From a virus: a stretch of 33,450 nucleotides of DNA. The notes under the pieces were generated by a model. It made no database searches, was not told the origin of the DNA, and saw only the letters and a program-made list of their open reading frames with translations. The stretch spans positions 134,648-168,097 of IMG/VR virus record IMGVR_UViG_3300042303_000041; one strand, given 5' to 3'. A program made the translations under genes and the position numbers. Positions 8,114 to 32,284 of the stretch are shown here, one piece after another. How positions within the stretch are numbered: the stretch's first letter is position 1; each line of letters starts with the position of its first letter.

Positions 8114-8134
8114 TTATTTTTCTCCGTTGATCCG

Positions 8135-8685: not shown

Positions 8686-8697
8686 GTTACCTTCTAT

Positions 8698-14577: not shown

Positions 14578-17500
14578 TTAAGCAAGAGCAATTATTCGCA
14601 GATCTGAAATTCTAGGTATTTGTGTAGAATCAGTCGAGGTCATAACAAGTTTAATTGTTATGGCATCAAAAGAAGGTAAGTCATCTAGATCAATCTCGTG
14701 TTCAAAGAATGATGAGTCTTTACTCTTTAGATTTGCAGGAACTGTTGTTCTGGCATTTTCATATTCTACAAAGTTAAAGTCTGTTTCAGTTCCAGATGGA
14801 TTTAATTTGTAGTATACTCCAATATTTGCTGCTGGTGGAACGTCAGCATCAAATTTAATCTTAACTGATGTGCATGGGTTTGCAAATTTTAGTTTACGAG
14901 TAACATATTTGTTAATGCTGGAACTGCCAACTGGTGTTCGCTCAGAGAAGAAACGATCCAATGCTTTAATAGTAATAGGCTCGGATGCTGCCTTGGCATT
15001 CAATACACCCTGAATAGTTAATGATTTTCCTTCTGGGTCAACATCAGTCACAAACCATGTTCCATTATTTTGAGTAACGCCAGAACCAGAAATTACAATA
15101 TACTGTCCAGAAATTATACCAGAAATAGCTTCATATAAAGCTGAATCTTGCACAACCATAACACCAGTACCATCAAACACAATTCCTTGATCTGCAGAAA
15201 CTACTTCTATGTAATCAATAGGATCGATATTCATAGAGGTGGATGGGTTGTTTGTCTTATTAGACACCGCAGTGATAGCCACGTTTTCAATATTAATAAT
15301 AGGTGACACATCTGGATTTGATGTGATTAGTTCTGCATTAATAATCGCTGTATTTCTTAAAGATGTCAATGTAGATAAATTCAAATCTTTCGCAACAGAG
15401 TTTTCCTTAGAAGCAATAACCATTGGAACTGGAGTATAGTTATCCTCACCAGGAGTGATACTAAAGGTGTTTGTATATGGTAGGTTAGCCTGTAAGAATG
15501 TTTGGTAAGGAGTTTGCGCTCCGTCCATGCTCTTTCCTGTAACACCCTGATATGTAATAATGCTATTAGTTCCAGTATAATTTTCAATGTTTATAGATGG
15601 ATTAAACATATCATATGGAACGTCTCTAGATGCTAGTACACCATCGCCACCACGTTCACCAGTTACGTTAGGAATATCACCAACAGAGAACACAATAGCG
15701 CCATTAGTAGTTGGGGCTGCACTTAACACGAATGTACTAGAGTTTGTTATAGAAGCAACTGTAGTGCTGTCAGCAAAGACTCCAGTGCCGCTTGTCTTTA
15801 TAACTGGTTGTCCAACAAACATATTAGAAGTATCGCCAGTAGATAGTGTAACTGATGTGGTAGAAGTATTTAAAGTTGTCTGTAAATTTTCGCTACCAAT
15901 AGTGATAACATAACTATCAAGCTCAACAGAATCTATATTATGATTTAGATAGTTTCCGTTGCTATCCAACTTAAAGATCTCATTAGGAGAAACACCATTT
16001 AATGGGTTCATGAATCTAAATGGCTCAGTGTTTGATATAATACCATAGTTAGAGTTTGATGTGCTTTTTAGAGTAAGCTGAGTATCGCTGGCGACAGATA
16101 AAACTTCGCCGATAACTTTGCCATCTTCTCTGTAGATAACAGCGCCTGGAACAATTGCGTTTGTAGTTGCAAACTTTGTACCAATACCTGAAACGATTGC
16201 AGAATTCTTTGCACTATAAATTTCACCAATTGCTACAGGTGGTAGTGCTTTAATAGCTACAACAGATTCTGTATTCATGCCATGGTTGTCGTGCGAAACT
16301 CTAACCTTTCTAGAACCTGCTGTGAATAGCAAAGGATTGTTCTGTAGACTAGAATCTGGAACATTAGCATTTTCAAACGCTACGCTACCTACAGTATTAG
16401 TTGTAAATGCAGCTTTGTTTAGTTTGAACTTCATATCTGTCATTTGCTCTGCTGTCCAAGTAGAAGCATTTTGCGACTTGAAGAAAACACCCATATATGG
16501 CTGCTTGTCGATCTGTCCACCATTCTCTTTAGATAACTCGCCTTGTTTAGCAACAAAGACTTCGGGAACATCAGAGTTAGACAATAGAACTAAACAGTAT
16601 TCAGTATTACCATTTAAATACGTAGGTGATGGGAACTTGATATTGGTCGCCAAGCTAGAATTGTCAGAAGTTTTAATTTCTGAGGCTGCAATCTGAGTTT
16701 TAGATGTTGTTAGTACAGTCTTACCTGGATATCCATTAACAACTTCTCTGATCTCAATCATAACTGGAGCAGAAACATCTTTCTTATAGAAGTATAAGTC
16801 TACAGATGTTACAAATACACCATTGGTCTCTTGAACCAAGAATGTCTGAGCTAGTGGGTCATACCATCCAGGTGAGTTTGAGAATCTAGTTTCTGTTGTT
16901 TTATCGATGTCGCTATCACTAACTTGTCTTGTTGCCAACTCACCATTGCGGATTCGTTGAATCTGATTTTGTCTTTCTTGGTAAATACCACTGGCAGTAA
17001 ATGCCTTTGTAGCAGATGACGTAGATGACTTTTTATCATATGTTTCAAAGTCTAGTAATGCAAGCTCGTTTGAACCTGTGTTGAATTTAACAGCAGTCGT
17101 GTTCGGCACATAGAATATAAAGTTTAAAGATCCCTGTAAAGAAGTTCTTAATTCACCACCTGCACGAGTAGTTGTTGCAGAAACAACAGCACCTTCAGCT
17201 TCGCTCAATGTACCCTTTATAACATTACCTGCAACGAAACCAGTAGTAGTAGCATTAACTGGATATTTTCTATTAACTACATATACAGCAAATTTTCCTG
17301 CATCTGGACCTGCATCATATTTTTCCCATCCAACAACTATAGCTGTAACACCAGTTGCAACAGTACCTGCTGAATTATACTCAATTAGAACATCACCAAC
17401 GCTGATAGATAAATCTGTAGAGTCGCCTGCAAATAATCTTGCAGTTTCAGAATAATTATTACCTGCACGGCTAACAGTATCAAAAATAGAGGACTTGCCA

Positions 17501-20500
17501 GTTCTTGCATTAAATATAATCTTTTCTGCAGGAGTGCAATACTCTTGTATGTTTCTTCCATCAAAGAATGGATAGAATACGGTATCACCCTTTAGACCCT
17601 TTGTCTGAACTGTCAAACGACGAGATCTCATATATGGAAGAATAGTAGTACTTAAAATCTTATCTTCTAAGACTCTTTCATCATAGATAGTCTTCACATA
17701 AGTTTCTGTTCCTTTTCTTGACTTAGGCACAGAAACTTGAACAGTAGAAACTGTAAATGACTGACTATTGACACCCCATCCACCAGCAAACCCACCACCA
17801 CCTACCGAGTATGCAGCGTATGTTTGTGAACTTGTAGTCTTTTCTGAACGACCTGCCCAATTCTTTTCCCAAGAACCCCATATAGTACCAAGTACACCTG
17901 CTTTCTCAGCAAGATTCTTAATAGTATTATAGTTACCTTCTTTTTCTTCAACAATAATATCTGGGCGACGCTTAACTTCAAACCATGTGTCACTTGCTGG
18001 AGTTATAGTCATGTTACCCAAGAATGTAAAGAACGCAAATGGGTTAATTTTTTCACTAGATGAAGATCTCACCTGTTCAATATACGTGGTTTCTGTAAAT
18101 GGTAATGTAATATACTTACCAGTCAAAGCATAGTTACGTGCAGTTCTATCGTTAGTTGATGATGCTACTTCTACGAATGGAATTTGGTCTTGGACAAAGA
18201 ATGGACGTAACATTCTAGATTCAAAATCAATAGAATTTAGATAATCTGGATTTGTAGTATCTCCAATGGCATGACCAGTAAAGTTATCTACAACAAAACC
18301 ATTTTTAAATTTCTCAAGACCATCAGCATCGCGTATCGTTAAATTCTGAGTTTCAGATTCAAGTAATGATAGAGATGTATAATATTCTAGGTTGTTAATT
18401 CTTTGCTCTAACTTACCAATATCAGCCATTGTATAACGTTTATTATCTACACCCTTAATCAAGATATTTGTAGAAGAAGTGCCGAACGTGTATGGTTGCA
18501 GTTGAATATCATACAACAAAACGTTGTCACTAATTTCTGGTGCTGCTGGTTGATTGACAAGTGTAGATACACCTTCGCTGATAGTAACTTTACCGTTACG
18601 ATCCATAAAGACTTTACACTTCTTGCCAAGATAATATTCTAGATCAAGAACCATGTCTGTGCCAAATTTAGGCATTAATGTTTCATCGTCTGTGAACACG
18701 ACAGCGCCTGTAAAGTTATCTGTTACTTTAGGTCTAAAGTCAATACAGTCTGCCAAGGCAAATCCGTTGTACACTGGAATTGTCTGGTAAGGAATACCAT
18801 CATATGATTTAACTGAGAAAAAGTCTCCAGATCCACTATGCTCATAATGCTCAAATACTATTCTAATAGGTGCTGTAGGTTTTGACTTACCATCCTTCAA
18901 TTGAATGAAAGAAATTCCATAGTATGAATCAGTTTGGTTTGTTATAAAGTTAAATCTATCTGTAATATTTGTGGTATATTGTCCAGATGGCTGACCCCAT
19001 GATCCAGTATCCATATTGACACTAACTATTCGAATACCATCAGCTTTACCTGTGTAGATAGCGTTAGATTCTCCAATAGATTTAGAAGTAACTGTATGCG
19101 TTACGCTCTTTAGAGTTTTGATCTTAGGGCTAGTAGTAACAGATGCATCTAATGTAGTTTGTATAACTACTTGTTGTCCGTTGTTAGAACCTAGTCCAGT
19201 GAATTCTATGGTAGTATTGTTATTAGAACGTGTTGCTCCAGAATATGTAAGATTCTGACCAGTTGCTCTGCTTACTAATTGATAAGACCCAATAGCTAAT
19301 GGATTTGCGAATTGGTATGGAGTATCGCAAGAAACAGCAACAGAGCCAGAAGCTATTGTGCCAATATACGTTCTTGTTGATGTGTATCTAACATCAGAAA
19401 CATTCTTGATTACAGGATATGGAAGTTTAAATATCAAGCTAGTTGCACCAGCATTGACAAGAGGACGGTACGCCTTTTCTATCTTTACACCTGATGTAGT
19501 GTTTCTTGTAAATATGTGAGCAGTTCCTGTGCCTACTGCAGTTATATCCATTTTACCAAGTGACCCACCAGTTTCTGCTCCAGTACGAGAATTATACAGA
19601 ACAAAAGAGTTTGGTGTTGGTGATGCACTAGTTCCTGCATAAACAAAGTAAGATCCACCGTCAACTAAGCCACCAATAGCATTAGCATCAAAAGATAGAG
19701 ATGATGTCTTTGTAACTACAGCATCCGCCATAGTCATAGAAGTAACTACAGTGTTAAGTGTAACTGTCATAGATCCTGATGCAGTATTCGCAAACACTAC
19801 AGCTGTACCACCACTAGAAGTAGAAATTGTAATCTTTTTCGCAGCAGTATCAATAGATCTAATAAAGTATGTAGTAGCTGCCAGCCCACCAAAAGCTGTA
19901 CCACTTAGTGTAATAGTATTACCCACTGCCATGCCAGCAACACTAGAAACAACTACAAAGTTTGTAGTCTTTTCTACACCAGTTGCTGTAGTAGTAACTG
20001 CAGTGATATCAAACTCTGTACCACCACTAGAAGTAGAAATTGTAGCAACATTAGCTGCAAGAGTTTTAATGAAGTAGTTAGTACCTGCTACAATACTGCC
20101 AAAAGTCGTGCCTGCAAAAGTTACTTTATCGTTAACAGCAATGTTAGTTGCATCAGAAAGAACAATAGTATTTGTAGAAGGAACGATACTGGTTACAGTT
20201 TTGGTTACTTCTGCTGTTAGATCAAGTGTTGCGCCACTAGGGGTTTCAGAGATAGTGAACGTTGTTCCGTTTGGAACAGTTTTCACATAGTAAGATTTAT
20301 TGGCTGAAATTCCAGCAATATTTGCACCGAATTTAATAACCTTTCCAGCACTTAACCCTGTAGTTGATGGAACTGTAATTACATCAGTTGTAGTATCTAC
20401 AGAAATAGAATCACCAGAAGAAGTTGAGATGGTACCAGCGTCATAGCTAACTTCAACGCCAGTGCTAAATCCATGAGCAGTTGAAGAAATCACATCAGTG

Positions 20501-22374
20501 CTAGTATTAACCACGCTTGCACTGGAAGCATCTATTACAATTGATGTTGTTCCTGCCACGTTCGTGTTAAGAGTCATAGCAGTGTTTGAAACTACAGTCT
20601 GCACTCTAGAATAGGTACCATTAATGTAAACATATTCACCAGCTTCATATTCTGTTAAGAATGATGTTCCTGTGCCAAATATAGATTTACCACTAATTAT
20701 AACTGTTCCTGAAGTTTGAACTGCATTTAATGCCAGATCAGCGGTGAATGTTGCTGATGTAGAAGCCGCAGGGATAACAATTTGTTTAATTCTGTTTGTG
20801 ATAGAATATCTTCTACCATTACCACTTGGAACCAAATCCATAACTACATTAAACAAGAACACTTTGTATCTTGCTTGTGAAGTACCCATAGCCCCTGATT
20901 CATATTCAATGGCTCTGATTCTAGCAGTTCCACGCTTGAGACCAGAAGATACGCCTAATGTTACTGTAGGATCTTCATAAAGTAGAACTTCAGGATATGT
21001 AGAAACGTCTGGGAATGAGTTTAGATTTTGAACAACAATATATTGCCCAAGATCAGTAGAAAACTGTAAGTCTTGGTCATTGCTAGTAGCTCTTGCCTTT
21101 AATAGTGGCGTATAGAATGTTGCTTTGGTTTCTACTTCATATCCAAAAATATAACCTTTACCAGCACCAAGACCGACAGCTAATTTAGCCTCGTCAGCCT
21201 CATGTTGGGTTGTAGTTGTATATGTAGTTGATGCAGTATAGACACCATTGTTATATGGAGGAACTGAGACTTCCTGCCACACAACAATACCAGTAGAACC
21301 AGCAGTGCTTCTTGGAGTTGTGTTTGAGTCTGAGAATCCAGTATTTAATGCACGATAGAAATTTTTAACACCACCAGCTGTTGTGTGCGCAACGATATCA
21401 TTTGCTAGATATGGTTTGTTTACAACATATGTTCCACGATCATTATTGCGGAACTCTTTAATGTTGATTGGGAAATTTTTAACTACGTAATTTCCAGACT
21501 CATCATATGTTCTGCGTGCCAGCGTGTGTTCTAATTCATTATAAAGAGTCTTGTTCACCAAATACTCTATGTTACCATTTTTGACTCTAAGAATTTCAAT
21601 AAAGTTAGTACCCTCACCAATCGTGAAATCATAAGACTTTTTAACAAGGTTTAAAGAAATAGTATAACGATGAGCGCCAGGAGCAGAATAGTTAAATGAC
21701 CCAGCAGCATTGTCTAATAAAGTCTCATCTTCTTCTGGTGTGACTGTATCTTCTACAATCTCTAGACAAATCTTTGCAGTAGGTGTTTTTGAGTATTTGT
21801 CGATAACGATTGTTTGGGCGTCAACTAAAACAAAGTTCTTCTTTACATAGAATACACCCTGCTGTATTGTAGCTCCAGAACTAACACCAGTAGCAGCACT
21901 AGACTGAACTGTTACACTAACGCCAGTTTCTTCAGACACTAAAGTTTCTGCAGCAGCAAACACTTTAGTTGTTCCATTAGTTCCAGAGTTAATATACTTA
22001 ACATAAACCATTGACGGATCGGCTGAGGTCTTAGTTGTATATGTTAAAACCTTTGCTCGCACACCTGTAGTCTGTCCAACTAAGATGTTACCGACTAACG
22101 CTGGTAAAAATCCATCCGTACCAGAAGTTCCAACTGTTGCTGTTAATTTAACATAAGAAAGCGCATTATCGAATCCAATTTCACCTGGAATGATAACAGA
22201 ACCTTCTTTAAATAAGTGGTCGCCGACTCTAGAGATTTGCGACTGCAGAATACTTTGAAGTTGATTTAGCTCTCTTGCTTGTACACCGTAACCAGGACGG
22301 AATAATATCTTTAAGAACTTCTTGTTTTCGTCAAAATCATCATAGTATGGTTCTGCATTGAAGTTGATTGTCAT
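14578..22374 (-). CDS. vrlC: Giant VrlC/DUF4815-type baseplate-tail protein (2598 aa)
   Basis: The largest gene of the window. The N-terminus (NAEPYYDDFDENKKFLKILF, then RPGYGVQARELNQLQSIL and GDHLFKEGSVI) is the DUF4815 start found in large tail proteins of many phages; the WYDPLAQTFLV and GVFVTSVDLYFYKKD motifs near residues 1838-1868 and IEIREVVNGYPGKTVL are those of VrlC-like proteins of T4-type marine phages. Residues about 615-960 are five degenerate repeats of about 72 residues. Residues about 2162-2232 hold a module shared with the 727-aa fibre. The remainder is beta-rich with no catalytic motif. It stands where T4 encodes gp9-gp11, so it may be the baseplate periphery to which fibres attach; this is inferred. 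The start has AAGAAGG upstream and a TATAAATA box 32 bases before the ATG. Confidence 0.9.
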   Translation of the reverse strand: MTINFNAEPYYDDFDENKKFLKILFRPGYGVQARELNQLQSILQSQISRVGDHLFKEGSVIIPGEIGFDNALSYVKLTATVGTSGTDGFLPALVGNILVGQTTGVRAKVLTYTTKTSADPSMVYVKYINSGTNGTTKVFAAAETLVSEETGVSVTVQSSAATGVSSGATIQQGVFYVKKNFVLVDAQTIVIDKYSKTPTAKICLEIVEDTVTPEEDETLLDNAAGSFNYSAPGAHRYTISLNLVKKSYDFTIGEGTNFIEILRVKNGNIEYLVNKTLYNELEHTLARRTYDESGNYVVKNFPINIKEFRNNDRGTYVVNKPYLANDIVAHTTAGGVKNFYRALNTGFSDSNTTPRSTAGSTGIVVWQEVSVPPYNNGVYTASTTYTTTTQHEADEAKLAVGLGAGKGYIFGYEVETKATFYTPLLKARATSNDQDLQFSTDLGQYIVVQNLNSFPDVSTYPEVLLYEDPTVTLGVSSGLKRGTARIRAIEYESGAMGTSQARYKVFLFNVVMDLVPSGNGRRYSITNRIKQIVIPAASTSATFTADLALNAVQTSGTVIISGKSIFGTGTSFLTEYEAGEYVYINGTYSRVQTVVSNTAMTLNTNVAGTTSIVIDASSASVVNTSTDVISSTAHGFSTGVEVSYDAGTISTSSGDSISVDTTTDVITVPSTTGLSAGKVIKFGANIAGISANKSYYVKTVPNGTTFTISETPSGATLDLTAEVTKTVTSIVPSTNTIVLSDATNIAVNDKVTFAGTTFGSIVAGTNYFIKTLAANVATISTSSGGTEFDITAVTTTATGVEKTTNFVVVSSVAGMAVGNTITLSGTAFGGLAATTYFIRSIDTAAKKITISTSSGGTAVVFANTASGSMTVTLNTVVTSMTMADAVVTKTSSLSFDANAIGGLVDGGSYFVYAGTSASPTPNSFVLYNSRTGAETGGSLGKMDITAVGTGTAHIFTRNTTSGVKIEKAYRPLVNAGATSLIFKLPYPVIKNVSDVRYTSTRTYIGTIASGSVAVSCDTPYQFANPLAIGSYQLVSRATGQNLTYSGATRSNNNTTIEFTGLGSNNGQQVVIQTTLDASVTTSPKIKTLKSVTHTVTSKSIGESNAIYTGKADGIRIVSVNMDTGSWGQPSGQYTTNITDRFNFITNQTDSYYGISFIQLKDGKSKPTAPIRIVFEHYEHSGSGDFFSVKSYDGIPYQTIPVYNGFALADCIDFRPKVTDNFTGAVVFTDDETLMPKFGTDMVLDLEYYLGKKCKVFMDRNGKVTISEGVSTLVNQPAAPEISDNVLLYDIQLQPYTFGTSSTNILIKGVDNKRYTMADIGKLEQRINNLEYYTSLSLLESETQNLTIRDADGLEKFKNGFVVDNFTGHAIGDTTNPDYLNSIDFESRMLRPFFVQDQIPFVEVASSTNDRTARNYALTGKYITLPFTETTYIEQVRSSSSEKINPFAFFTFLGNMTITPASDTWFEVKRRPDIIVEEKEGNYNTIKNLAEKAGVLGTIWGSWEKNWAGRSEKTTSSQTYAAYSVGGGGFAGGWGVNSQSFTVSTVQVSVPKSRKGTETYVKTIYDERVLEDKILSTTILPYMRSRRLTVQTKGLKGDTVFYPFFDGRNIQEYCTPAEKIIFNARTGKSSIFDTVSRAGNNYSETARLFAGDSTDLSISVGDVLIEYNSAGTVATGVTAIVVGWEKYDAGPDAGKFAVYVVNRKYPVNATTTGFVAGNVIKGTLSEAEGAVVSATTTRAGGELRTSLQGSLNFIFYVPNTTAVKFNTGSNELALLDFETYDKKSSTSSATKAFTASGIYQERQNQIQRIRNGELATRQVSDSDIDKTTETRFSNSPGWYDPLAQTFLVQETNGVFVTSVDLYFYKKDVSAPVMIEIREVVNGYPGKTVLTTSKTQIAASEIKTSDNSSLATNIKFPSPTYLNGNTEYCLVLLSNSDVPEVFVAKQGELSKENGGQIDKQPYMGVFFKSQNASTWTAEQMTDMKFKLNKAAFTTNTVGSVAFENANVPDSSLQNNPLLFTAGSRKVRVSHDNHGMNTESVVAIKALPPVAIGEIYSAKNSAIVSGIGTKFATTNAIVPGAVIYREDGKVIGEVLSVASDTQLTLKSTSNSNYGIISNTEPFRFMNPLNGVSPNEIFKLDSNGNYLNHNIDSVELDSYVITIGSENLQTTLNTSTTSVTLSTGDTSNMFVGQPVIKTSGTGVFADSTTVASITNSSTFVLSAAPTTNGAIVFSVGDIPNVTGERGGDGVLASRDVPYDMFNPSINIENYTGTNSIITYQGVTGKSMDGAQTPYQTFLQANLPYTNTFSITPGEDNYTPVPMVIASKENSVAKDLNLSTLTSLRNTAIINAELITSNPDVSPIINIENVAITAVSNKTNNPSTSMNIDPIDYIEVVSADQGIVFDGTGVMVVQDSALYEAISGIISGQYIVISGSGVTQNNGTWFVTDVDPEGKSLTIQGVLNAKAASEPITIKALDRFFSERTPVGSSSINKYVTRKLKFANPCTSVKIKFDADVPPAANIGVYYKLNPSGTETDFNFVEYENARTTVPANLKSKDSSFFEHEIDLDDLPSFDAITIKLVMTSTDSTQIPRISDLRIIALA
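19500..20530 (-). repeat. Five degenerate 72-residue tandem repeats in the VrlC-like protein
   Basis: Units follow the pattern (ST)xxVIxVxxxxGxxxGxxxxFxGxxxxGLxxGxxYFVxxxxxxxFxIS, and the last ends MDITAVGTGTAHIFT. Two neighbouring units share an exact 29-bp stretch (19803-19831 and 20016-20044) encoding TISTSSGGT. One copy of the same unit sits inside the gp8-like protein (residues about 629-713). The first unit begins with AHGFSTGVEVSY, matching NHGFQTGAAVVY in gp8. Confidence 0.8.
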
Positions 22375-22405: not shown

Positions 22406-22413
22406 TATTTATA
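22406..22413 (-). promoter_or_regulatory. T4-type late promoter box TATAAATA before the VrlC-like gene
   Basis: A perfect TATAAATA on the minus strand, 22413 to 22406, overlapping the TAA stop of the gp8-like gene. The VrlC-like ATG lies at 22374 with AAGAAGG in front, so a late transcript starting near 22400 would carry a leader of about 26 bases. Position in the only sizeable gap of this region supports function. Confidence 0.65.
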
Positions 22414-25400
22414 ACTTGAATCTAGTTGTTATCACCAGTGGCTGCTCATCACTTGGTGCAAATGGTGTTTTATTGTCAATAAAAATTAAGTCACCAGAGA
22501 ATCTATCGACATCTGGTTTTTCCACATACGTTATTGCATGGAAAACACCAGTAATGCTTCTCATAAAGTTTCCTGATTTTATTAGTTCGTCATTGTTATC
22601 TATTGCCTGCAAGATTAAAGAATTTGCAGCTTTTGCAATAACTTTGAATTTAACCGCAATGGAAGATGAAGTTACCGTTTGCGATGTGTATACAGTAACT
22701 ACAGAATTTAATGCTGCCGTAGTAGGTGTAGTTGCCACAGTAATTTTATAGCAGGTGCTGCCAGTAAAGTTATTGTAATTAAATACACTATTGAATTGGT
22801 TTGGTGACTTCAATACACAAACTTGACGTACACTAGTCAAAGCATCAAGTGGAACTGCCTTTACCGCAAGTTGAGACAAACGATTATACATTATAACTGT
22901 GCGACCGTTTAGCTCATCTACGCTGCTTTTTCCATGACCACCAATTGGTCCAATTATTGCTCTAGTTTGTGCACCAGATCCAACACCATTAATTGTTACA
23001 GTAGCATTAGTGTAATCTTTACCACGAGTTATAATGTTTATCTTTGTAACTACACCAGACTGTACGGTGGCAGTAGCAGTAGCACCTGTACCATCACCAA
23101 CTATAGAAACTGACGTACTTGCTTGAACATATCCAATGCCGCCAGAAACAATTTGGAAGTTGTCTATTGAACCATTGACTGCAGTAAGCTCAACCTGCGC
23201 TTGAACCGAGTTAACAGCACCAATAGACGTATCAATTGTTAATTGAGCATCAAATCCTGTTCCAGATGTTGGTGGTTTATTTCTTTTGACCTCGCATGCT
23301 GCATACGTATACCCAGTTCCACCATCAATAATAATAGCACCATGAATCTCACCGTTAGTTACATCTACAATAGGTTCGATATATGCCTTTGACTTTTCTG
23401 CAACAGATTGTAATGTTGGAATAGATGCAGTAGACAAATATGTAAGTGTAGCATCTCCGTTGGCTACTGCGCCAGTTGTATGTGATGGTGCAGAAGTGCC
23501 TAAATTATAAGGGTTTGTTACCGCAGTTACTTTGTAAATTCTATTTTGGTGTGTGATTTCTTGATTCAATGTAACAACAGCACCAGCCACCCATCCATTA
23601 GTGAATGATAAAAATGGGGTAGGAATAACGTTATAGCCATAACCAGGGTCAGTCAATACAGCACTCTTTATATATCCTGAAGATACTACACTATTTGCAG
23701 TAGCCTGAAATCCAACTGTCGTGTTGGTTAGAGTATGATTCGAACCAACACCAGCAGCTGTTATGTCAATTAAACCAGTTGCACCGCCAGCGAGTGCATT
23801 TGTTTGATTATTATATAACTTAACGACATTAGCAGATACTACGTTTGCGTAATATGTAGTTCCATTAGTCAATCCTGCTATAGCAGTTCCAGTACCGTTA
23901 GAATAAACTACAGCAGCACCTGTTTGAAAACCATGATTATTGTAAGTTATTGTATCATTGGCAACACTTACTGCAGTGGAACCATTAAATGTAATAGTTG
24001 GAGGTATGACAGTAACAGTTGGTGCTGTTGTATAATTTTGTCCAGCAGTCAATAATGTTATACTTTTGACAGATCCATTAGTTGGAGATAGAGAAGCAAT
24101 TGCTTCTGCGGGAACAATAGTTGCACTGGCGTCTAATCCATATGGAGTTATTACAACTAATGGTACTGTTGTATAACCAGTACCTTGATTAGTAACAACA
24201 ATAGAAGCTACAGAAGCATTAAGTACTGCAGTACCAGATGCTGGTGTGTCTGGTGTACCACCACTAAATGCAACTGATGGAGCATACAAGTATCCAGAAC
24301 CTCCAATAAGAGAAACACTTTGAACCAAACCGTTGAATATAGTTACTATACCAGAAGCTGCTACTCCAGCATATGCTAGTGTTGCAGTTCCATTGGTGGC
24401 AGAACCGCTGGTATGAGTTGGTGCAACTGTCCCTGTAGTTCCAGCGCCAGTAACTGTATACAATCTACCATCACGTGCTATTTGTTGATCCACTGTTAAA
24501 GCAGTAGTTTGTGCCCACTGCACTCCAATTGTGATTGTAGGAGCAGTATCATATCCTTCACCTGTAGTGCCAGAAGTAAAGTCTATTGATTCAATAGTAC
24601 CAGATAATCTAGCTGTAGCTGCAGCACCTGTTCCATTACCACCATTAAATGATATGGTCGGTGGTAAGCTATACCCAGAACCAATAACAGGAATACTAAT
24701 TATTGAGCTTATTGGAAATCCCAATGTGGCAGACGCTGTTGCGCCTGTACCACCTCCAGAAGTTATTGATACTGTAGGAACTTGAGTGTATCCAGAACCT
24801 GCGCTAGATAATGCAATATCAAGAACGTTAACGTTCACCACAACAGTTCCTGATGCAACGCTACCAGTTTGATATGGTGCTGGGAAATTAACTACCAATC
24901 CTTCGTTGCTAGTGTACCCAGATCCACCATCAACTACCGAAATCCCTGTCATTACATAAGGGTTTGCTTGTCTGTAACCATCACCAATAATTTCTAGTTC
25001 GGTGTTTAATTTTTTCGCTGGAGATAAAGATGTTACTCTCAATAGAGGTTCATTGTTTGCAATTGTTATTACATAATATGTAACACTTTCTACAACTTCA
25101 GTAGCTACAGATGCTACTGATCTAACTTCACCATTGACTTCAACTCTGTCTGTAGCAACTAGAGAAAGGATTGCAGAATTTGTACCATACAACTTTCTTA
25201 AGTTGGTTACACCACTAACAGTCTTAGTTGCTATACTTCCAAGACTTGTGTTTTCATGATACTTGGTTCCTTTAAGATTAAAGACAACCTGAGATAATCT
25301 ACCATCACTGTAGTATCCAGTTTGTAAAGCATTTACAACTGGCATCTGTGATGAGTTTAAAAATTTGTTTCGAAGATATAATGGAATGTTATACATGAAT

Positions 25401-25864
25401 TTCCACACATAACCATCTTCTACGATATTAATAAAACCTGTGGACTGACCTGTAGGCTTTACAGCCGACGAACTGTTTCTGTTATTTGAGATACATTTAT
25501 ATACATTAAATTCATCTGTTAAGATATAAAAATTTGATGTATCTAGTGAAGTAGCTCCAGAAAAAGCCACATTAGTTTCGCTGTAGTTATCGTATTGATC
25601 GTATACTGCGCCCAAGACCCAGTTGATACGATCAATAACTAAACATACATCATTTGATAAAATCTCTTGACATGTAACTATATTACTTCTGGTAGTATAT
25701 TCATATTCTAAAGTATCAATAGCCGATTGTGGAGTCTCCGCAAGATCCCATGGATCTGTTTTACCGAACGTATAGTAATACTTGTTCTTCTTGCTAAGAA
25801 TCTCATCTAAAAGAGTCTTAGCTAAAGAAGAATGTATCGCATTCTTTAGAATTGAAGTTGCCAT
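22409..25864 (-). CDS. gp8: Baseplate wedge protein gp8-like, with a large repeat insertion (1151 aa)
   Basis: The N-terminal 200 residues follow T4 gp8: YYTFGKTDPWD (29-39), CLVIDRINW (74-82), FNVYKCI (119-125) and EDGYVWKFMYNIP (149-161) correspond to ITFGRSEPW, VIPRRDW, WLVYRC and DGYVWEYLFEIP of T4. The C-terminus (RFSGDLIFIDNKTPF at 1121-1135, ending VITTRFKL) corresponds to the T4 end with SGEMIYMENRPPI and LFTF. T4 gp8 has 334 residues; here about 680 extra (293-975) are inserted, made of a dozen GxGYxxxPxV units, two carbohydrate-binding-like modules and one HGF-type repeat. gp8 is a dimeric wedge component in T4; the insertion probably projects from the baseplate. The last codons overlap a late-promoter box. 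Confidence 0.87.
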   Translation of the reverse strand: MATSILKNAIHSSLAKTLLDEILSKKNKYYYTFGKTDPWDLAETPQSAIDTLEYEYTTRSNIVTCQEILSNDVCLVIDRINWVLGAVYDQYDNYSETNVAFSGATSLDTSNFYILTDEFNVYKCISNNRNSSSAVKPTGQSTGFINIVEDGYVWKFMYNIPLYLRNKFLNSSQMPVVNALQTGYYSDGRLSQVVFNLKGTKYHENTSLGSIATKTVSGVTNLRKLYGTNSAILSLVATDRVEVNGEVRSVASVATEVVESVTYYVITIANNEPLLRVTSLSPAKKLNTELEIIGDGYRQANPYVMTGISVVDGGSGYTSNEGLVVNFPAPYQTGSVASGTVVVNVNVLDIALSSAGSGYTQVPTVSITSGGGTGATASATLGFPISSIISIPVIGSGYSLPPTISFNGGNGTGAAATARLSGTIESIDFTSGTTGEGYDTAPTITIGVQWAQTTALTVDQQIARDGRLYTVTGAGTTGTVAPTHTSGSATNGTATLAYAGVAASGIVTIFNGLVQSVSLIGGSGYLYAPSVAFSGGTPDTPASGTAVLNASVASIVVTNQGTGYTTVPLVVITPYGLDASATIVPAEAIASLSPTNGSVKSITLLTAGQNYTTAPTVTVIPPTITFNGSTAVSVANDTITYNNHGFQTGAAVVYSNGTGTAIAGLTNGTTYYANVVSANVVKLYNNQTNALAGGATGLIDITAAGVGSNHTLTNTTVGFQATANSVVSSGYIKSAVLTDPGYGYNVIPTPFLSFTNGWVAGAVVTLNQEITHQNRIYKVTAVTNPYNLGTSAPSHTTGAVANGDATLTYLSTASIPTLQSVAEKSKAYIEPIVDVTNGEIHGAIIIDGGTGYTYAACEVKRNKPPTSGTGFDAQLTIDTSIGAVNSVQAQVELTAVNGSIDNFQIVSGGIGYVQASTSVSIVGDGTGATATATVQSGVVTKINIITRGKDYTNATVTINGVGSGAQTRAIIGPIGGHGKSSVDELNGRTVIMYNRLSQLAVKAVPLDALTSVRQVCVLKSPNQFNSVFNYNNFTGSTCYKITVATTPTTAALNSVVTVYTSQTVTSSSIAVKFKVIAKAANSLILQAIDNNDELIKSGNFMRSITGVFHAITYVEKPDVDRFSGDLIFIDNKTPFAPSDEQPLVITTRFKL
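22940..24988 (-). repeat. GxGYxxxP repeat insertion inside gp8-like protein
   Basis: Residues 293-975. Twelve units start GDGYRQANP, GSGYTSNEG, GSGYTQVPT, GSGYSLPPT, GEGYDTAPT, GSGYLYAPS, GTGYTTVPL, GQNYTTAPT, GYGYNVIPT, GTGYTYAAC, GIGYVQAST and GKDYTNATV. Most are followed by GTGAxAxA and a short beta strand, with 30-50 residues per unit unless another module is inserted. Two paralogous modules (residues 449-500 and 757-810, with GRLYTVTGAGTTGTVAPTH and NRIYKVTAVTN) resemble carbohydrate-binding modules. Confidence 0.85.
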
Positions 25865-25871
25865 TTGAATA

Positions 25872-26348
25872 TTAGCTTACAGTGATTGTCCAAGTGATAG
25901 TGATAGTATCAGAAGTGGTTTTTGTAACTACACCGAATACGGTACGACATAACATTGTACCACTAGTCAATGCATTAAAAATACCAGCTTCTGTAATAGC
26001 ACCAGAATAAGCACCAGCAAAAGTTGCTTTATAGGTAACTTGGTTACCAGTAGAACTAACTTCTGTAAATGTAACACGTGCGCCGTTAGCAGTTCCTAGT
26101 GTCGTGTCGGTGCCAGCGTTAACGGCAACAACACCAGTACCGATACCCATGTGAGTCATGGCAGTTGGTGTGTTGGTAGTAGTCTTAATCATAGAGCCAG
26201 CAATAAAAGTCTTGCCAGTGGCAACAACTGTATTCTTAACTTTACGAACATCGACTAATTTACCGTCGGCATTAAATTTTTCGATTGTCAAGTAACCTAC
26301 TGGACTCAGTAGATCTTCAACATCATTTTTGTTTTCATTTTGGGTCAT
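25872..26348 (-). CDS. Conserved small phage structural protein between gp7 and gp8 (158 aa)
   Basis: Residues about 15-40 (VGYLTIEKFNADGKLVDVRK) are followed by a small beta domain with HMGIGTGVVAVNAGTDTTLG, TYKATFAGAYSGAITEAGIF and TITITWTITVS. The GTG...DTTLG...EAGIFN...TWTIT pattern recurs in small proteins of many tailed phages, usually beside tail genes; its exact role is not known to me. T4 has nothing between genes 7 and 8. It starts ten bases after gp7 with an AAGGAA ribosome site and ends seven bases before gp8, so all three are co-expressed. It may decorate the wedge or cap one of the inserted domains. Confidence 0.85.
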   Translation of the reverse strand: MTQNENKNDVEDLLSPVGYLTIEKFNADGKLVDVRKVKNTVVATGKTFIAGSMIKTTTNTPTAMTHMGIGTGVVAVNAGTDTTLGTANGARVTFTEVSSTGNQVTYKATFAGAYSGAITEAGIFNALTSGTMLCRTVFGVVTKTTSDTITITWTITVS

Positions 26349-26357
26349 ATTAATTCC

Positions 26358-29081
26358 TTAAAAAGTTCTTGTTCTTGCAAGGTATGTTTCATCAGCAAAA
26401 TAGCTAAAATCATCATTGTATTGGTTGAAAAACACATTCCCGCTATCACTATTTATTACGAAAGATTGGGATGGGGTTAAGTTTAAACTTGAGTTGTTTC
26501 TGGTGAATGTTAATCCAGTTAGAGTGCCTGCAGTTGTTGCAATAGGTACGTTTGTTCCATATTCAGCTAACGTAAATGTATTGGGGGTAACACTACCATT
26601 TGTAGCGAGTAACTCATATAAATTAATAACACCAGGAATGTATCCAGAGATACTACCAGTACCTGTATTTGTTCCAGTAACTGATATAGTAAAGACATTT
26701 TGACCAAAGTAAATCTGATTACAAGTAAATGTTCCTGCAGTTCCTGTTACTTGTACATTAGCTAAAACGTTTTCGATAGTAGGTGGTACCACACGACTGA
26801 ATAATTTATCAATCAATAGTGGAACAGTATCTGTTGCTGTTACTGGTGGCGAACTGAATGGCGCTTGTACATAATCTAGCGATGGACTACTACTAGGAGA
26901 GAATGAACTTAGAAGCTGATAGAATTGCTCTATATTTACTGAATGAAGGAATAGTCCTGCTTGTAAAATACTTGTAAATGCGGGATTGGGATCTGTAGCT
27001 GGGAATTCGTTTAAAACGATATCACGAGCGGCAGAAAATGTTTGTTGTGGTAAAACAGTAGTGAATGCGGGATTAGGATCTGTAGCTGGGAATTCGTTTA
27101 AAACGATTACTTTAGGCAATTCATGTACAAATAGTTCCGCTTGTAAAATACTTGTGAATGCGGGATTAGGATTAGTAGCTGGGAATGCGTTTAAATTGAT
27201 TTCTGATACAAAAATTGGGTCACCAAAAGATATAGTAGATGCTCTAGAATCTTTCAGTTCTATATCAAACAAGTACGTTTTAAATGAACCCTTTACTCTT
27301 CCAGATACTGAATCCAGTAAAGTAGGATCATCAAAAGAAGTTAACAATGTAGGAGAATCTTCCTTCTCAAACAAATAGCGGTTAGCAGATTCTACACCTA
27401 TCATCGGTGTCTGTACATCTTTTTCAACAACCAGTTCTACTAATTGTGTGATAGGAATTACCTTTGATACGTTCGGTTCATTTAACGCATTTGGTGATCC
27501 CAGAGGTTGTTCAAATAAGTATCGTCTATCAAATTCTTGAGGGTCTAAAGTTGATGCCTTTATAGATTCAAACAAGTACGTTTTAAATGAACCCTTTACT
27601 CTTCCAGATACTGAATCCAGTAAAGTAGGATCATCAAAAGAAGTTAACAATGTAGTTGTAGACTGTTCAAATAAGTAGAAATCATCATCTGATGTTAGCT
27701 GAACTGAAGTTACTGGTTTGTCGAATAACAAATTAAACTCAGACAAGGCATTAACAACAGTAGGAATACCTGCAAATAATGGCAGCAAGATTCTAAATAC
27801 TGGTTCTACGACTTCATAGTTTAATTCAAATATGTTGTCTACTACATACTCAGCAAATAACTTTCTACCAATAGGATGCAACAAAGACATCACTGTTTCT
27901 TTGTATGATGATAATGCTTCATCTATACGCAGTACATATGAGTATTTTTGATAGTAATTATTATCTTGAATAACGCTATCTGGTGATGATACTAAGCCTG
28001 TTGAATTTTCGTAGTATCCTTGGTATTTTGCTAAAGTACCTAACACAACTTCTAACTCTGCAGAGTTTGCTGTTATTTCTTCGGCTACAGTAACTGAATT
28101 GAAGGAAGTCATAACTTCACCAACATAATCAGTACTGTAATCGCTAGTATAATAATTTTGTTTCGATATTATACCAGAATCTATGTAACGTTGTATCGAA
28201 GAGAATGCTGATATTTTAATAGGTGTGCCTAATGTAGTTTCTACTACATCACCTATTAAAAATGTAGATGGTAAATCAAAGGAAAACGAAGACTTATAAT
28301 TTATACCATAATTTATAATCTGTGTACTTTTTATACCACCAAGAGCAGTAACTTCAATCACTTTGAACGTTAATCCAGAACCAACATCTGATTCTATATT
28401 AAAAACTTGGCCAACTTTAAAACCAAACCCTGCTTTTTTAATTTTTATAGAAGTTGTGGTATTTACTACACTTGCAACCACGCCATCTTGGTTTATGGTA
28501 TCGCCAAATAATACTTTACCATAAACGTCTTTATTGATAAACAATTCATAGATAGACTCTGATGTTAAAACACTCTCTACACGTTTAACATAGATTCTAT
28601 TTTTAGTTGAAATTCCGTTAACTATAGTGTTTAAAAACACTACGTTGTTCTGTAATGATAGAATATCACCAGAAGTTAACTTAACGAAAATAGAAAAATC
28701 TTGAACCCATTTAGAGTCTGAGATAGTTAATAATTGTTCTCTAGGATAACGAATATCAACTTCTTTTTGGAACATCTTTCTAAAAAGAAATTTATAAGAT
28801 TCTTCACTTCCATGCGAAACTGCAATATGTGGAGTATTTTTAAGAAATTGACGATCTCTAGCAAACTGCGGGAAATCTACAGCAAACTCTTTCTTTAATT
28901 GATCTATAAAAATGTCTATTGTTTCGTCAACATCTCTAATCGTTTCTAAATTTCTATAAACATTTTGAGTTTCTAAAAATTTGTAGTATGCTTGAAGAAA
29001 TTCTACAAATGTTGGATAACTCTCCCTGATATGATCAGGGAGTTGTATAGAGATAAGATCTGATAATTTATTTTTTATCAT
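26358..29081 (-). CDS. gp7: Baseplate wedge protein gp7-like, rearranged (907 aa)
   Basis: It takes the gene 7 place, between gp6 and gp8. The N-terminal 420 residues resemble the C-terminal module of T4 gp7: YPTFVEFLQAYYKFLE at 22-37, GSEESYKFLFRKMFQKEVDI at 91-110 (T4 has GIEASYKFLFKVLYNEEVEI) and ETVMSLLHPIGRKLF at 395-409 (T4 has FVHPVGFGF). The first 600 or so residues of T4 gp7 have no counterpart. Instead, residues 430-907 form a new C-terminal extension: two copies of a 28-residue SFDDPTLLDSVSGRVKGSFK unit (around 480-504 and 581-605), repeated YLFE motifs, three FPATxPNPAFT units (633-703) and a module at 776-861 shared with the 727-aa fibre. The gene overlaps gp6 by four bases (ATGA). 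Confidence 0.8.
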   Translation of the reverse strand: MIKNKLSDLISIQLPDHIRESYPTFVEFLQAYYKFLETQNVYRNLETIRDVDETIDIFIDQLKKEFAVDFPQFARDRQFLKNTPHIAVSHGSEESYKFLFRKMFQKEVDIRYPREQLLTISDSKWVQDFSIFVKLTSGDILSLQNNVVFLNTIVNGISTKNRIYVKRVESVLTSESIYELFINKDVYGKVLFGDTINQDGVVASVVNTTTSIKIKKAGFGFKVGQVFNIESDVGSGLTFKVIEVTALGGIKSTQIINYGINYKSSFSFDLPSTFLIGDVVETTLGTPIKISAFSSIQRYIDSGIISKQNYYTSDYSTDYVGEVMTSFNSVTVAEEITANSAELEVVLGTLAKYQGYYENSTGLVSSPDSVIQDNNYYQKYSYVLRIDEALSSYKETVMSLLHPIGRKLFAEYVVDNIFELNYEVVEPVFRILLPLFAGIPTVVNALSEFNLLFDKPVTSVQLTSDDDFYLFEQSTTTLLTSFDDPTLLDSVSGRVKGSFKTYLFESIKASTLDPQEFDRRYLFEQPLGSPNALNEPNVSKVIPITQLVELVVEKDVQTPMIGVESANRYLFEKEDSPTLLTSFDDPTLLDSVSGRVKGSFKTYLFDIELKDSRASTISFGDPIFVSEINLNAFPATNPNPAFTSILQAELFVHELPKVIVLNEFPATDPNPAFTTVLPQQTFSAARDIVLNEFPATDPNPAFTSILQAGLFLHSVNIEQFYQLLSSFSPSSSPSLDYVQAPFSSPPVTATDTVPLLIDKLFSRVVPPTIENVLANVQVTGTAGTFTCNQIYFGQNVFTISVTGTNTGTGSISGYIPGVINLYELLATNGSVTPNTFTLAEYGTNVPIATTAGTLTGLTFTRNNSSLNLTPSQSFVINSDSGNVFFNQYNDDFSYFADETYLARTRTF
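26958..27200 (-). repeat. Three LNxFPATxPNPAFT repeats in the gp7-like gene
   Basis: Copies at about 26958-27020, 27061-27107 and 27138-27200. The two left copies share gggaattcgtttaaaacgat exactly; the third differs at a few bases. Spacing is about 87-93 bases. They encode LNEFPATDPNPAFT twice and LNAFPATNPNPAFT once, each reached through a short beta-like linker (SILQAGLF, TVLPQQTF, SILQAELF). Confidence 0.9.
27265..27655 (-). repeat. Perfect 88-bp direct repeat in the gp7-like gene
   Basis: Bases 27265-27352 and 27568-27655 are identical over 88 positions and lie 303 bases apart, which is in frame. They encode LLTSFDDPTLLDSVSGRV followed by KGSFKTYLF. No drift, even at third positions, points to a recent duplication or continuing gene conversion. 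The 303-base unit could be gained or lost by recombination without breaking the frame. Confidence 0.95.
29022..29042 (-). other. Inverted repeat just inside the gp7-like gene
   Basis: ctccctgat at 29022-29030 pairs with atcagggag at 29034-29042 across a 3-base loop. It lies 39-59 bases after the start codon and encodes LPDHIRE. There is no T-tract after it. It may affect translation or transcript processing, or be a coincidence of codon choice. Confidence 0.5.
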
Positions 29082-30910
29082 TTTCTATTTGGAGTAAATA
29101 CATATGCAGAACCACCACGAGCACTACCTGAAGAGATAGGATCAATAACAGTTATGATTTTCATCTCGCTTTGTTGAATTCGAATAACTTGATCTCTTAG
29201 TGCGACAACATCATAAGAAGATGGTTTAAAGTAAAACATAAAATTATCTGAAGCAAGTGCTATTATATTTAGCCCTTCAATAGAAACAATACCTTTACTA
29301 TAGTCTATTGTGCCTATTGCTGCGTTTATAATAATTTCTTCTCCAGAACTAATATAATACATGTAAACAGTGCCTGCTCCATTATCTTTTAGATAGTAGA
29401 CTAAGTCACTATTTTGTATATAAAATCCAGTAGAAACAAACGCTGATTCTTTTGCACCAGTAAAGTAAATAGGATTGCCAATATCTACTTTATATTGCGC
29501 TGTTATATTAAATTTGGGGTAAAGCTCTCTAGATAATGAAACATTAGTCACGTTGTTTTGTATAGACTGATCTGCAGCATCTATTAAGCGAACAACCTTT
29601 GAGTGTCTGAAAACACTATCAAACTTCATTAGTTCAGTTTCACTGTAGTTATTAAGAACTTCTGCCACATAACCACTTATAGACGATGCTGATCTAGACG
29701 TAGATTTTGGATTATAATAAACAGTCGATTCTAGTATGATGTTCAAATATATTGGATCTACAATCTCAGCAACTGTTGTAACTATAGACTTTGGCTTTAG
29801 TATAACATTCTTAATGAAATCTTTTTCATTGTCGTTTAAGTAATCTTTAGTCTTTGGTTGGATTGAAATAAAAACTTTACCAAACTGCTGCGGTACATTA
29901 TCTTCTCCACCCCAGACTTGGATAGATTTAACGTTACTAAAGTTCTTAAAGATAAGATTCTTATAATCGCTTTCTGTAACTGCTCTATTTTGGGTAGAAA
30001 AATGACGTGGCGCATTAAATTTAATACTAGGTAATTCTTCTGCATTTTCTCCACCCATAGCCATACTGTTAGTGGTTAGTGTTATTGTACCATTAGAAAA
30101 TACAGAGCCATCTAACTTAAATGTTTTAGAACCATTAGAATCAGTACCAGAGGATGTTCTGTAAATAATACGTATATAATTACCAACACTTAATGCCTTA
30201 CCAATAACACCATCACCAAATTCAATTTGATAATTTCCGTTTTCGATTTCCTTTAGGTAATATACATTACTTTCAGGTGTTAATGCAATAACATCGTCCG
30301 ACAAAGAATATAAAGTCGATTCAGCTGAAGCTATTGATGGGTGAACATAAACTTCTAGTGAAGAAGTATCACATGGTGAGTTGTTCAATATAAACTTAGT
30401 ACCAATTTGGTATACATACTGTTCTGTGTGATAAATGCCTTCCATAATATCAAAGCTATCAAATGTATAAACCCCATCTGACAATGACACAGTCATTTCA
30501 TCTTTATTTGAAAAGTAATAACTACTACCATCGGTTGCGCTTGCTGTAAATACTGTTCTTGCTGGTAATGTTGCTAACTGCGGGTCTAAAACTAAACCAG
30601 AAACTATCAATGTAACGTTGGCTTTTGAACTGCGTGCAGAACGTGGCGTATATCCTAGCATTTTAGCTATTGATAGAATACTTTCTCGTTTGCTTGCAGA
30701 ATCTAAGAACATCTCATTCAATGCCATGTTGGTATACAACGCATTATAGTGAGTATTATATGCTAATAAATCCACCAAAACAGAAAGACCAGAACCTTCA
30801 AAATTGTAGTCTTTGAATGTATCTTGCCCACTCAAAAAACTCTTAAGGTTAGTTCTTATACCTTCGTAGCTTAATTCATCTACCTTAATTTTTTTATTTG
30901 TTTCTGCCAT
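29078..30910 (-). CDS. gp6: Baseplate wedge protein gp6-like (610 aa)
   Basis: The central wedge protein; in T4 two gp6 copies and one gp7 per wedge close the inner baseplate ring. The N-terminus matches the T4 gp6 signature: KSFLSGQDTFKDYNFEGSGL (residues 23-42), VLVDLLAYNTHYNALYTNMA and MLGYTPRSARSSKANV. The middle has VYYLKEIENGNYQIEFGDGV and, further on, the baseplate J-like PRHFSTQNRAVTESDYKNLI segment and YLNDNEKDFIKNVILKPKSI. At 610 residues it is slightly shorter than T4 gp6 (660). It shares the A of its ATG with the stop codon of gp25 (TAATG) and overlaps gp7 by four bases, so the wedge genes are translationally coupled. Confidence 0.94.
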   Translation of the reverse strand: MAETNKKIKVDELSYEGIRTNLKSFLSGQDTFKDYNFEGSGLSVLVDLLAYNTHYNALYTNMALNEMFLDSASKRESILSIAKMLGYTPRSARSSKANVTLIVSGLVLDPQLATLPARTVFTASATDGSSYYFSNKDEMTVSLSDGVYTFDSFDIMEGIYHTEQYVYQIGTKFILNNSPCDTSSLEVYVHPSIASAESTLYSLSDDVIALTPESNVYYLKEIENGNYQIEFGDGVIGKALSVGNYIRIIYRTSSGTDSNGSKTFKLDGSVFSNGTITLTTNSMAMGGENAEELPSIKFNAPRHFSTQNRAVTESDYKNLIFKNFSNVKSIQVWGGEDNVPQQFGKVFISIQPKTKDYLNDNEKDFIKNVILKPKSIVTTVAEIVDPIYLNIILESTVYYNPKSTSRSASSISGYVAEVLNNYSETELMKFDSVFRHSKVVRLIDAADQSIQNNVTNVSLSRELYPKFNITAQYKVDIGNPIYFTGAKESAFVSTGFYIQNSDLVYYLKDNGAGTVYMYYISSGEEIIINAAIGTIDYSKGIVSIEGLNIIALASDNFMFYFKPSSYDVVALRDQVIRIQQSEMKIITVIDPISSGSARGGSAYVFTPNRK

Positions 30911-31302
30911 TATCGTGTTCTTTCTAGTGTCATCTGGAATGACTGTAGAGCCGTAGAGTTTAGTATGTAGTAATAGATACTTATCTCTAAAGAATTATTA
31001 GAGTCGTTTGGTGTTATTATAACATCCTGCAATGATATTCGTGGCTCAAAATTTTCAATAGTTTGCTCAACGACAGTCTTAAGCATTATTCTAAGCATAG
31101 GTGAATATGGCTCAAACATAAGACCACGTATAGGAGAACCAAGATTACTATTAAATGGACGTTCGTAATTTGCAGTTAGTATTAGATTTCTTAGTGCTTG
31201 ATTGACTGCAGCAGCATCGGTTTTTCTCGAGATATCATCTGTTATTGGATGTCTCGTGAAGTTTAAATCTATATCTGAAAAAATTGCTTGCTTTATAGCC
31301 AT
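30910..31302 (-). CDS. gp25: Baseplate wedge protein gp25 (130 aa)
   Basis: Member of the GPW/gp25 family: T4 gp25 has 132 residues and is a building block of the wedge that joins the sheath start to the baseplate. DIDLNFTRHPITDDISR at the N-terminus, ALRNLILTANYERPFNSNLG, RGLMFEPYSPM and the FEPRI motif (EPR at 86-88) are the family hallmarks. The EPR residues sit at the gp25-gp6-gp7 core contact in known structures. Overlaps with PAAR and gp6 are one base each. In T4 gene 25 lies apart from genes 5 and 6; here they are together. Confidence 0.96.
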   Translation of the reverse strand: MAIKQAIFSDIDLNFTRHPITDDISRKTDAAAVNQALRNLILTANYERPFNSNLGSPIRGLMFEPYSPMLRIMLKTVVEQTIENFEPRISLQDVIITPNDSNNSLEISIYYYILNSTALQSFQMTLERTR

Positions 31303-31616: not shown

Positions 31617-32284
31617 TATTTAATCCCCTTACCCACTTCGACAGAAAAGCTAGCAAGTGATATTGCATAGTTCCAGTAGAAGTATTGCTGTATGTTTTTA
31701 GTTGCAGTTTTTGGAATTCCAGAAGAATCTGTGTAATTAATATTAAAACTGTAAGTTCTAGAAACCTCTTTTGATGCAGGTTCTTGATAGTTAACAACTG
31801 AGAAGAATTCATCAACTTCAGTATTATTTATCGCAGATAAAGTTACAGTTTCGTTAGGTTTTAATAAGTATGTATAAAATTCATCTTGAAACAAACGTAA
31901 TGCAGTTCCAGATAAAATCATAGAACTAGCTGAACTGCTTTCCGCAGTAATACCAAACGCTACAGTATTTGTAGTGCATGTAACTGATGTGGCAAAAACA
32001 TATACAGGAACTTCCTCTGTTGATAGTAATTCATCTAATACCTTAAATGATAATTTAACAGAAAATGTAGTCCCCTGATATACAGATTTTATTAAGTTGG
32101 ATGGTAAAGCTAATCCATCCTCTGAAAATGTTGGATATCTATCGCCTGGAATTCCAGAGGGGAATCCAACTTCTTCTGAGTAAGATACAGTGACTTGTCC
32201 GCCAGTTGATATGTTAGGAACTATTAGATTGACATCATCGCCATCTATAACATCAACTATAGAATTAAATACAAGTTCAGCCAT
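31616..32284 (-). CDS. Unknown baseplate-operon protein (222 aa)
   Basis: I do not recognise this family. The protein has a beta-rich composition with ISTGGQVTVSYSEEVGF near the start, a FSVKLSFKVLDELL segment, and an aromatic NIQQYFYWNYAISLASFSVEV stretch near the C-terminus. No signal peptide, transmembrane segment or catalytic motif is visible. It overlaps both the needle gene (32284) and the PAAR gene (31616) by one base, so it is made together with the hub and tip. The placement suggests a hub or spike accessory, perhaps an adaptor between needle and tip or a tail-completion factor. It lacks clear similarity to T4 gp53 or gp27. Confidence 0.8.
   Translation of the reverse strand: MAELVFNSIVDVIDGDDVNLIVPNISTGGQVTVSYSEEVGFPSGIPGDRYPTFSEDGLALPSNLIKSVYQGTTFSVKLSFKVLDELLSTEEVPVYVFATSVTCTTNTVAFGITAESSSASSMILSGTALRLFQDEFYTYLLKPNETVTLSAINNTEVDEFFSVVNYQEPASKEVSRTYSFNINYTDSSGIPKTATKNIQQYFYWNYAISLASFSVEVGKGIK

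Follow-up and report, generated by a model that had tools for sequence, protein, structure and literature searches.

The window considered here is a stretch of 33,450 nucleotides covering positions 134648-168097 of the 168,097-bp virus record IMGVR_UViG_3300042303_000041. On its minus strand, positions 22409-25864 hold a single intact open reading frame (ORF) of 1151 amino acids (aa), which almost certainly encodes a baseplate wedge protein of the T4 gp8 type. The protein is made up of an N-terminal gp8 core (residues 1-206, corresponding to T4 residues 1 to about 221; positions 25247-25864), a main insertion of 707 residues (207-913; 23126-25246), and a C-terminal gp8 core (914-1151; 22412-23125). 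The insertion is a modular, beta-rich array of GxGY repeat units and other modules, and sits in the loop at about T4 residue 221 of the only gp8 in the record. A preliminary description, made from the letters of the window alone, had drawn attention to this ORF, which we found to be real and intact.

Identity of the Protein

The 1151-aa protein matched PHROG 438 (baseplate wedge subunit, E 9e-78) and PHROG 977 (T4 gp8, E 3.5e-5), and its match to Pfam Gp8 was weak on its own (E 0.01). In HHalign comparisons, the family of short gp8 forms matched T4 and VH7D gp8 at 99.7% (E 5.5e-27) and reached the C-terminus, and the family of long forms matched T4 gp8 at 98% (E 1.5e-13) in the N-terminal part only. 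The AlphaFold2 model of a natural 506-aa relative (L029) had a mean predicted local distance difference test score (pLDDT) of 87, and its five significant Foldseek matches in the PDB (E <= 0.001) were all T4-type gp8 (best 1n7z, E 2.8e-9, probability 1.00). The model of the 1151-aa protein likewise had only T4-type gp8 among its top five matches (1n7z, E 4.5e-5, probability 1.00) and among all its significant ones. The TM-scores by target length against 1n7z, 0.56 for L029 and 0.38 for the 1151-aa protein, were depressed by the insertions. This second model was good in the core only, namely at residues of about 11-180 and about 890-1151 (pLDDT mostly 75-91); the score was 80-91 over most of residues 11-180, with a dip to 61-69 around residues 91-110.

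Gene order pointed in the same direction. The genes for gp25, gp6, a 907-aa protein at the gp7 position, a 158-aa protein, gp8, and a large protein at the VrlC position follow one another as in cyanophages, and the order gp25, gp6, gp7 position, gp8 is that of both T4 and cyanophages. Searches with both gp8 families found no second gp8 in the 168-kb record, which may itself be incomplete. The preliminary description had taken both ends of the protein for T4 gp8 and had expected them to fold as a gp8 core, with no other clear gp8 in the genome. These expectations were borne out: the motifs that it named are present, the ends align with those of T4 gp8, the core of the long protein and the natural short relative both match 1n7z, and the gene at 22409-25864 was the only one found. 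Since PHROG, HHalign, and Foldseek agree, and since this is the sole gp8 of the record and lies in the expected gene order, we regard the identification as close to certain. Homology at both ends, gp8 fold, operon position, and single copy were all observed together.

It might be argued that the protein is a tail fibre or adhesin whose ends resemble gp8 by chance, or an artefact of fused assemblies, given that repeat modules make up most of its length and that Pfam Gp8 reached only E 0.01. This explanation is extremely improbable. Three kinds of comparison point to gp8, the only gp8 of the record lies in the syntenic position, and intact copies, identical or 84% identical, occur in independent contigs. 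A separate public contig (L007) encodes the 1151-aa gp8 at 100% identity over residues 1-1151, contigs L005 and L006 carry partial copies that are 100% identical, and contig L004 has an intact version that is 84% identical across its full length. Assembly fusion as the origin of the ORF is therefore very unlikely. In one contig (L011), gp8 is split into two overlapping ORFs of 761 and 186 aa (7989-10272, and from 10190 onward), through a frameshift, a sequencing error, or a programmed event.

Organization of the Insertion

In the multiple alignment with gp8 of S-RIM2 (510 aa), the protein differs by a single insertion of 707 residues, 207-913, at about T4 residue 221. The GxGY motif occurs 10 times in the protein against 0.49 expected from shuffled sequences (no more than 4 in any of 2000). 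With a unit profile whose training left out the 1151-aa protein and its closest relative, that of L004, 10 units scored 12 bits or more; when both were included in the training, 11 units reached 21 bits or more, and the maximum in 200 shuffles was 8.5 bits. When the unit was compared with solved structures, BurrH repeat proteins came out on top; no individual domain among them scored better than E 4, and these matches were dismissed as spurious. A Pfam family for the units was not accepted either, because one member only gave a match (Flg_new_2, 0.0079), which was inconsistent.

Three further modules lie in the array. Residues 450-500 (24365-24517) and 758-811 (23432-23593) resemble carbohydrate-binding modules (CBMs) of the CBM5/12 type; the similarity stays short of the curated cut-off of Pfam CBM_5_12, and we class them as CBM5/12-like only. 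Over its whole length, the profile of such modules matched the receptor-binding domain of a cyanophage tailspike (7eea; E 9.9e-5). Residues 623-714 (23723-23998) form an HGF-type module, to which modules in non-gp8 ORFs are related; a search of the PDB by sequence gave no match for it.

This picture modifies the preliminary description at several points. Its two carbohydrate-binding-like modules and one HGF-type module were recovered, and its repeats are real, with a count of 10-11 by profile close to the twelve that it gave. The insertion that it placed at residues 291-975 (about 680 residues) also exists, with boundaries shifted to about 207-913 when cyanophage gp8 is the reference; the last units that it assigned to the insert belong to normal cyanophage gp8, and we include them in the C-terminal core. 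It overlooked a second, small insertion relative to T4, at residues of about 1029-1108 (22541-22780), which ordinary cyanophage gp8 has as well, and it did not recognize that the array occupies one of three loops at which the gp8 family accepts modules.

Length Variation and Module Turnover among Relatives

Proteins of the T4 type (334-340 aa) had no GxGY unit, and gp8 proteins of isolated cyanophages (494-534 aa) had 0-2 detectable units at the same loop as the main array. The preliminary description did not notice that many cyanophage gp8 proteins already contain an insertion here, of which the 707-residue one is an enlarged form. We collected 102 distinct complete environmental gp8 proteins in two scans of IMG/VR, both of which favour relatives of the queries, so that they give a range and not a census. 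Their lengths were continuous from 292 to 1276 aa and rose with the count of GxGY motifs (Spearman 0.86). In a tree of the core columns, read without regard to branch support, the long forms fell mostly into one large clade near the cultured phage BUCT-ZZ01, and at least eight changes between long and short forms were counted. BUCT-ZZ01, which infects Synechococcus elongatus PCC 7942, was the nearest relative in culture that we found; its gp8 has 525 aa and 3 GxGY motifs. No record in the annotated phage collection covered 80% of the 1151-aa protein or of the gp8 of L036.

Modules were found at three loops, located at T4 residues of about 112, 221-235, and 285 (ports A, B, and C). In proteins of the L010, L013, and L020 types, port A is lengthened by 73-133 residues that include GxGY units; the 1151-aa protein has none, and its corresponding loop (residues 95-108; 25541-25582) is short when aligned with relatives. 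Port B is the site of the main array. Port C contains the small insertion common with cyanophages, and in L010, L036, and L038 it is enlarged by CBM-like modules. T4-type gp8 (L080) has an insertion of its own at T4 residues of about 137-162, bounded by two cysteines and absent from cyanophage-type gp8, so that the core varies at one more loop.

Close relatives differed by whole modules. The 84% identical gp8 of L004 has a 49-residue module that the 1151-aa protein lacks, the gp8 of L025 has 88 extra residues, and at one position the gp8 proteins of L026 and L023, which are 92% identical, are set apart by about 61 residues. Modules of the same types recur in other tail genes: the 49-residue module of L004 is also found in a tail-fibre protein of this phage (12353-14347; phmmer 5.3e-6), and the 88-aa module of L025 in another (8698-10881; phmmer 1.8e-16), and the latter type also in the gp7-position protein (3e-9). 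Across related loci, the L025 type gave 18 non-gp8 ORF matches (best 8e-35), and modules related to the HGF module are likewise recorded in 18 non-gp8 ORF matches. Elsewhere in the same phage record, G000:C1:71005-71631 (L002) carries the HGF module and 128727-128984 (L003) carries a GxGY unit.

The ratio of nonsynonymous to synonymous substitution rates (dN/dS) in nine pairs was 0.14-0.28 for the array and 0.07-0.16 for the core, and the array was higher in all nine. Based on these values, the array is maintained by purifying selection under a constraint looser than that of the core, and evolves about twice as fast. A nearly neutral origin could be proposed, in which a permissive surface loop gathers repeat units by unequal recombination and the array merely folds without harm; the continuous series of lengths, the repeated changes on the tree, the indels among near-identical relatives, and the twofold dN/dS would all agree with it. 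However, the dN/dS of the array is that of a maintained sequence, and about 2 kb per genome are kept throughout a whole clade. We consider this origin distinctly improbable.

Proposed Role of the Array

In T4, gp8 is present in 12 copies in the upper dome of the baseplate, where it touches gp10, gp7, and gp6; it forms a dimer and acts as a chaperone for gp6 (PMC3004832). By homology, the core of the 1151-aa protein would dock in the wedge in the same manner, with 12 copies contacting gp7, gp10, and gp6, and the array would leave it as an arm on the surface of the baseplate. Because the insertion sites may be empty or take up over 700 residues, their burial is unlikely and a surface arm is favoured; judging from the sequences, the insert is very probably exposed. 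We suggest that such an arm may serve as an auxiliary device for host contact, in which the GxGY units would act as spacers and the CBM-like and HGF modules would provide weak, multivalent (up to 12-fold) contact with glycans of the host surface beside the tail fibres. Modules come and go and are probably traded with tail-fibre genes, so that retuning of the arm would leave the assembly core as it is.

Auxiliary host contact is the reading that we favour, because the modules are akin to a receptor-binding domain and to tail-fibre modules and are exchanged with them. By analogy with the CBM-bearing Dit of lactococcal phages, the protein may be an "evolved" gp8 with an auxiliary adhesion arm, for which we put the chances as about even; a glycan as the ligand, proposed from the resemblance of the modules, is possible but somewhat more doubtful. 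In populations of S-PM2d coexisting with Synechococcus, a non-synonymous mutation was reported in gp8 among other proteins (PMC9910659), and as a pointer to host contact it is suggestive only. A still broader proposal would be that gp8 has turned into a display platform with three ports throughout a large clade of aquatic T4-like phages. Drawing on the module pool of tail fibres, it would equip every virion with some dozen or more auxiliary receptor-binding arms, which could be retuned and would determine host range together with the fibres. We advance this proposal tentatively and think it rather unlikely.

The main rival explanation is structural. The array might serve as a skirt or strut linking gp8 with neighbouring large tail proteins (the VrlC-like protein of 2598 aa, the gp7-position protein, and the fibres) in an enlarged cyanomyophage baseplate, without host contact. 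GxGY units do occur in other baseplate proteins, since by profile they were detected in the gp7-position proteins of P-HM1 (9), S-RIM2 (5), and S-SM2 (none in P-SSM2 and ACG-2014f), and 2-4 units were present in those of L010, L036, and L044. Purifying selection on the array and the double-layered baseplate that has been proposed for such phages (PMC7029224) also speak for a structural part. Nevertheless, similar cores carry arrays of anything between almost no residues and over 700, a range that a load-bearing interface is unlikely to tolerate easily; close relatives differ by whole modules, and these resemble receptor-binding and tail-fibre modules. A purely structural part is in our judgement possible, though on the unlikely side.

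Several observations weigh against the adhesion arm. T4 gp8 lies high in the dome, away from the host-facing rim (PMC3004832), which again suits a strut. Pfam CBM_5_12 was touched by only 5 of the 13 CBM-like modules, with a best E of 0.026, below Pfam significance. Positive selection on the array was not found in the nine pairs, where dN/dS stayed below 0.3; selection on it is purifying and gives no hint of an arms race. With respect to the host, the cyanophage marker psbA is absent from the 168-kb record. Finally, the shape of the array is poorly modelled: for much of its length the pLDDT is about 25-50, and the full-length model is too poor there to tell a solenoid from a sandwich fold.

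Relation to Known Systems

Both gp8 and tail-tip proteins decorated with CBMs are already known. The core fold at both ends and the gene order are shared with gp8 of T4 (1n7z) and of Klebsiella phage Lilla1 (9f4a), which presumably occupy the same place in the wedge; unlike the 1151-aa protein, T4 gp8 has 334 aa, no GxGY units, and none of the three insertions. The gp8 proteins of Kyanoviridae (S-RIM2, P-SSM2, P-HM1; PHROG 438) have the same core and the second, C-terminal insertion, and several have 1-2 GxGY-type units in the same loop, but they are about 500-534 aa long, without a long array, and no CBM-like or HGF modules were seen in them. The major capsid protein of the phage is about 65% identical to those of cyanomyoviruses such as S-WAM1. 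Long homologues with the same fold and similar length (719-1330 aa) exist in BFVD (A0A6J7WV88, A0A6J5QRE4, and A0A6J7WV12, derived from UniProt entries of uncultured Caudovirales), of which one is annotated as a baseplate wedge subunit and the others as uncharacterized; none of the papers found describes their array or its modular make-up.

A functional parallel may be the evolved Dit and other CBM-decorated proteins of the 936 lactococcal siphophages, in which a core tail-tip protein has an inserted CBM, present or absent among relatives, and host binding has been shown experimentally (PMC6669499). There are 12 copies of Dit in 936 phages, as there are of gp8 in T4. The systems differ in core protein and phage type, and a single BppA-like CBM stands against a mixed array of ten units; moreover, binding has been demonstrated for Dit, while the gp8 array is known from sequence. 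By analogy, gp8 would work like an evolved Dit, with a loop module present or absent among relatives; we do not claim membership, as the core is gp8. The tailspike domain 7eea, in which one module can be aligned over all 51 positions of the CBM-like modules, belongs to a dedicated receptor-binding protein and not to a wedge component.

We found no description in the openly licensed literature of a gp8 that a mixed modular array has expanded to over three times its size, or of a family with three loop ports on one core. This matters for comparative work. gp8 is one of five proteins common to all pelagimyophages and cyanomyophages compared and has been used as a phylogenetic marker (PMC7029224), and most of the present gp8 consists of modules with a fast turnover; gp8 trees and annotations should use the core only. 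If the arms do bind hosts, an adhesin concealed within an assembly protein would escape any prediction of host range that considers only tail fibres. With its lengths of 292-1276 aa, the family is also a natural series in which to study the places where a baseplate can accommodate insertions.

Neighboring Genes

The genes for gp25, the gp6-like wedge protein, the gp7-position and VrlC-position proteins, and the two tail-fibre proteins that hold gp8 modules lie on the minus strand. Upstream of gp8 are gp25 (30910-31302; PHROG 261, 9e-46; GPW_gp25, 1e-14), the gp6-like wedge gene (29078-30910; PHROG 219, 3.9e-168; Gp6-like_1st, 1.6e-21), and the gene for the 907-aa baseplate protein at the gp7 position (26358-29081; PHROG 17744, 6e-34; Pfam Baseplate_wedge, 4.8e-9). 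This last protein has internal direct repeats, with a stretch like LNEFPATDPNPAFT present three times and one like YLFE...SPTLLTSFDDPTLLDSVSGRVKGSFKTYLF twice, and near its C-terminus (774-860) it contains the module type gained by the gp8 of L025. The proteins at the gp7 position in the marine cyanophages P-SSM2, P-HM1, S-SM2, S-RIM2, and ACG-2014f (L094-L098) are 1713-5195 aa long. A trade-off of repeats between gp7 and gp8 was considered and rejected: P-HM1 would fit it (nine units in gp7 and one in gp8), but the score is 0 for the giant gp7 proteins of P-SSM2 and ACG-2014f, and in L010-type phages both proteins contain units. Between the gp7-position gene and gp8 lies the gene for the 158-aa protein (25872-26348), which belongs to PHROG 5417, of unknown function, and has a weak match to the Pfam Gp80 fibre family (E 0.036).

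Downstream of gp8 lies the gene for the 2598-aa structural protein at the cyanophage VrlC position (14578-22374; PHROG 358, E 0; synteny with S-SM2 and P-HM1). It is followed by the two tail-fibre genes that hold the modules of L004 and L025 gp8, both of which matched tail-fibre PHROGs. Among the tail-fibre genes, 10923-12350 encodes a glycine-rich protein of 475 aa with no PHROG match. At the other end of the window, near the place of T4 gp5, a 361-aa protein (32284-33369) has a repetitive N-terminal stretch and a C-terminal region that matches an endolysin PHROG; its GLRN...SDHNKGRALDF motif presumably resembles that of M15-type peptidases.

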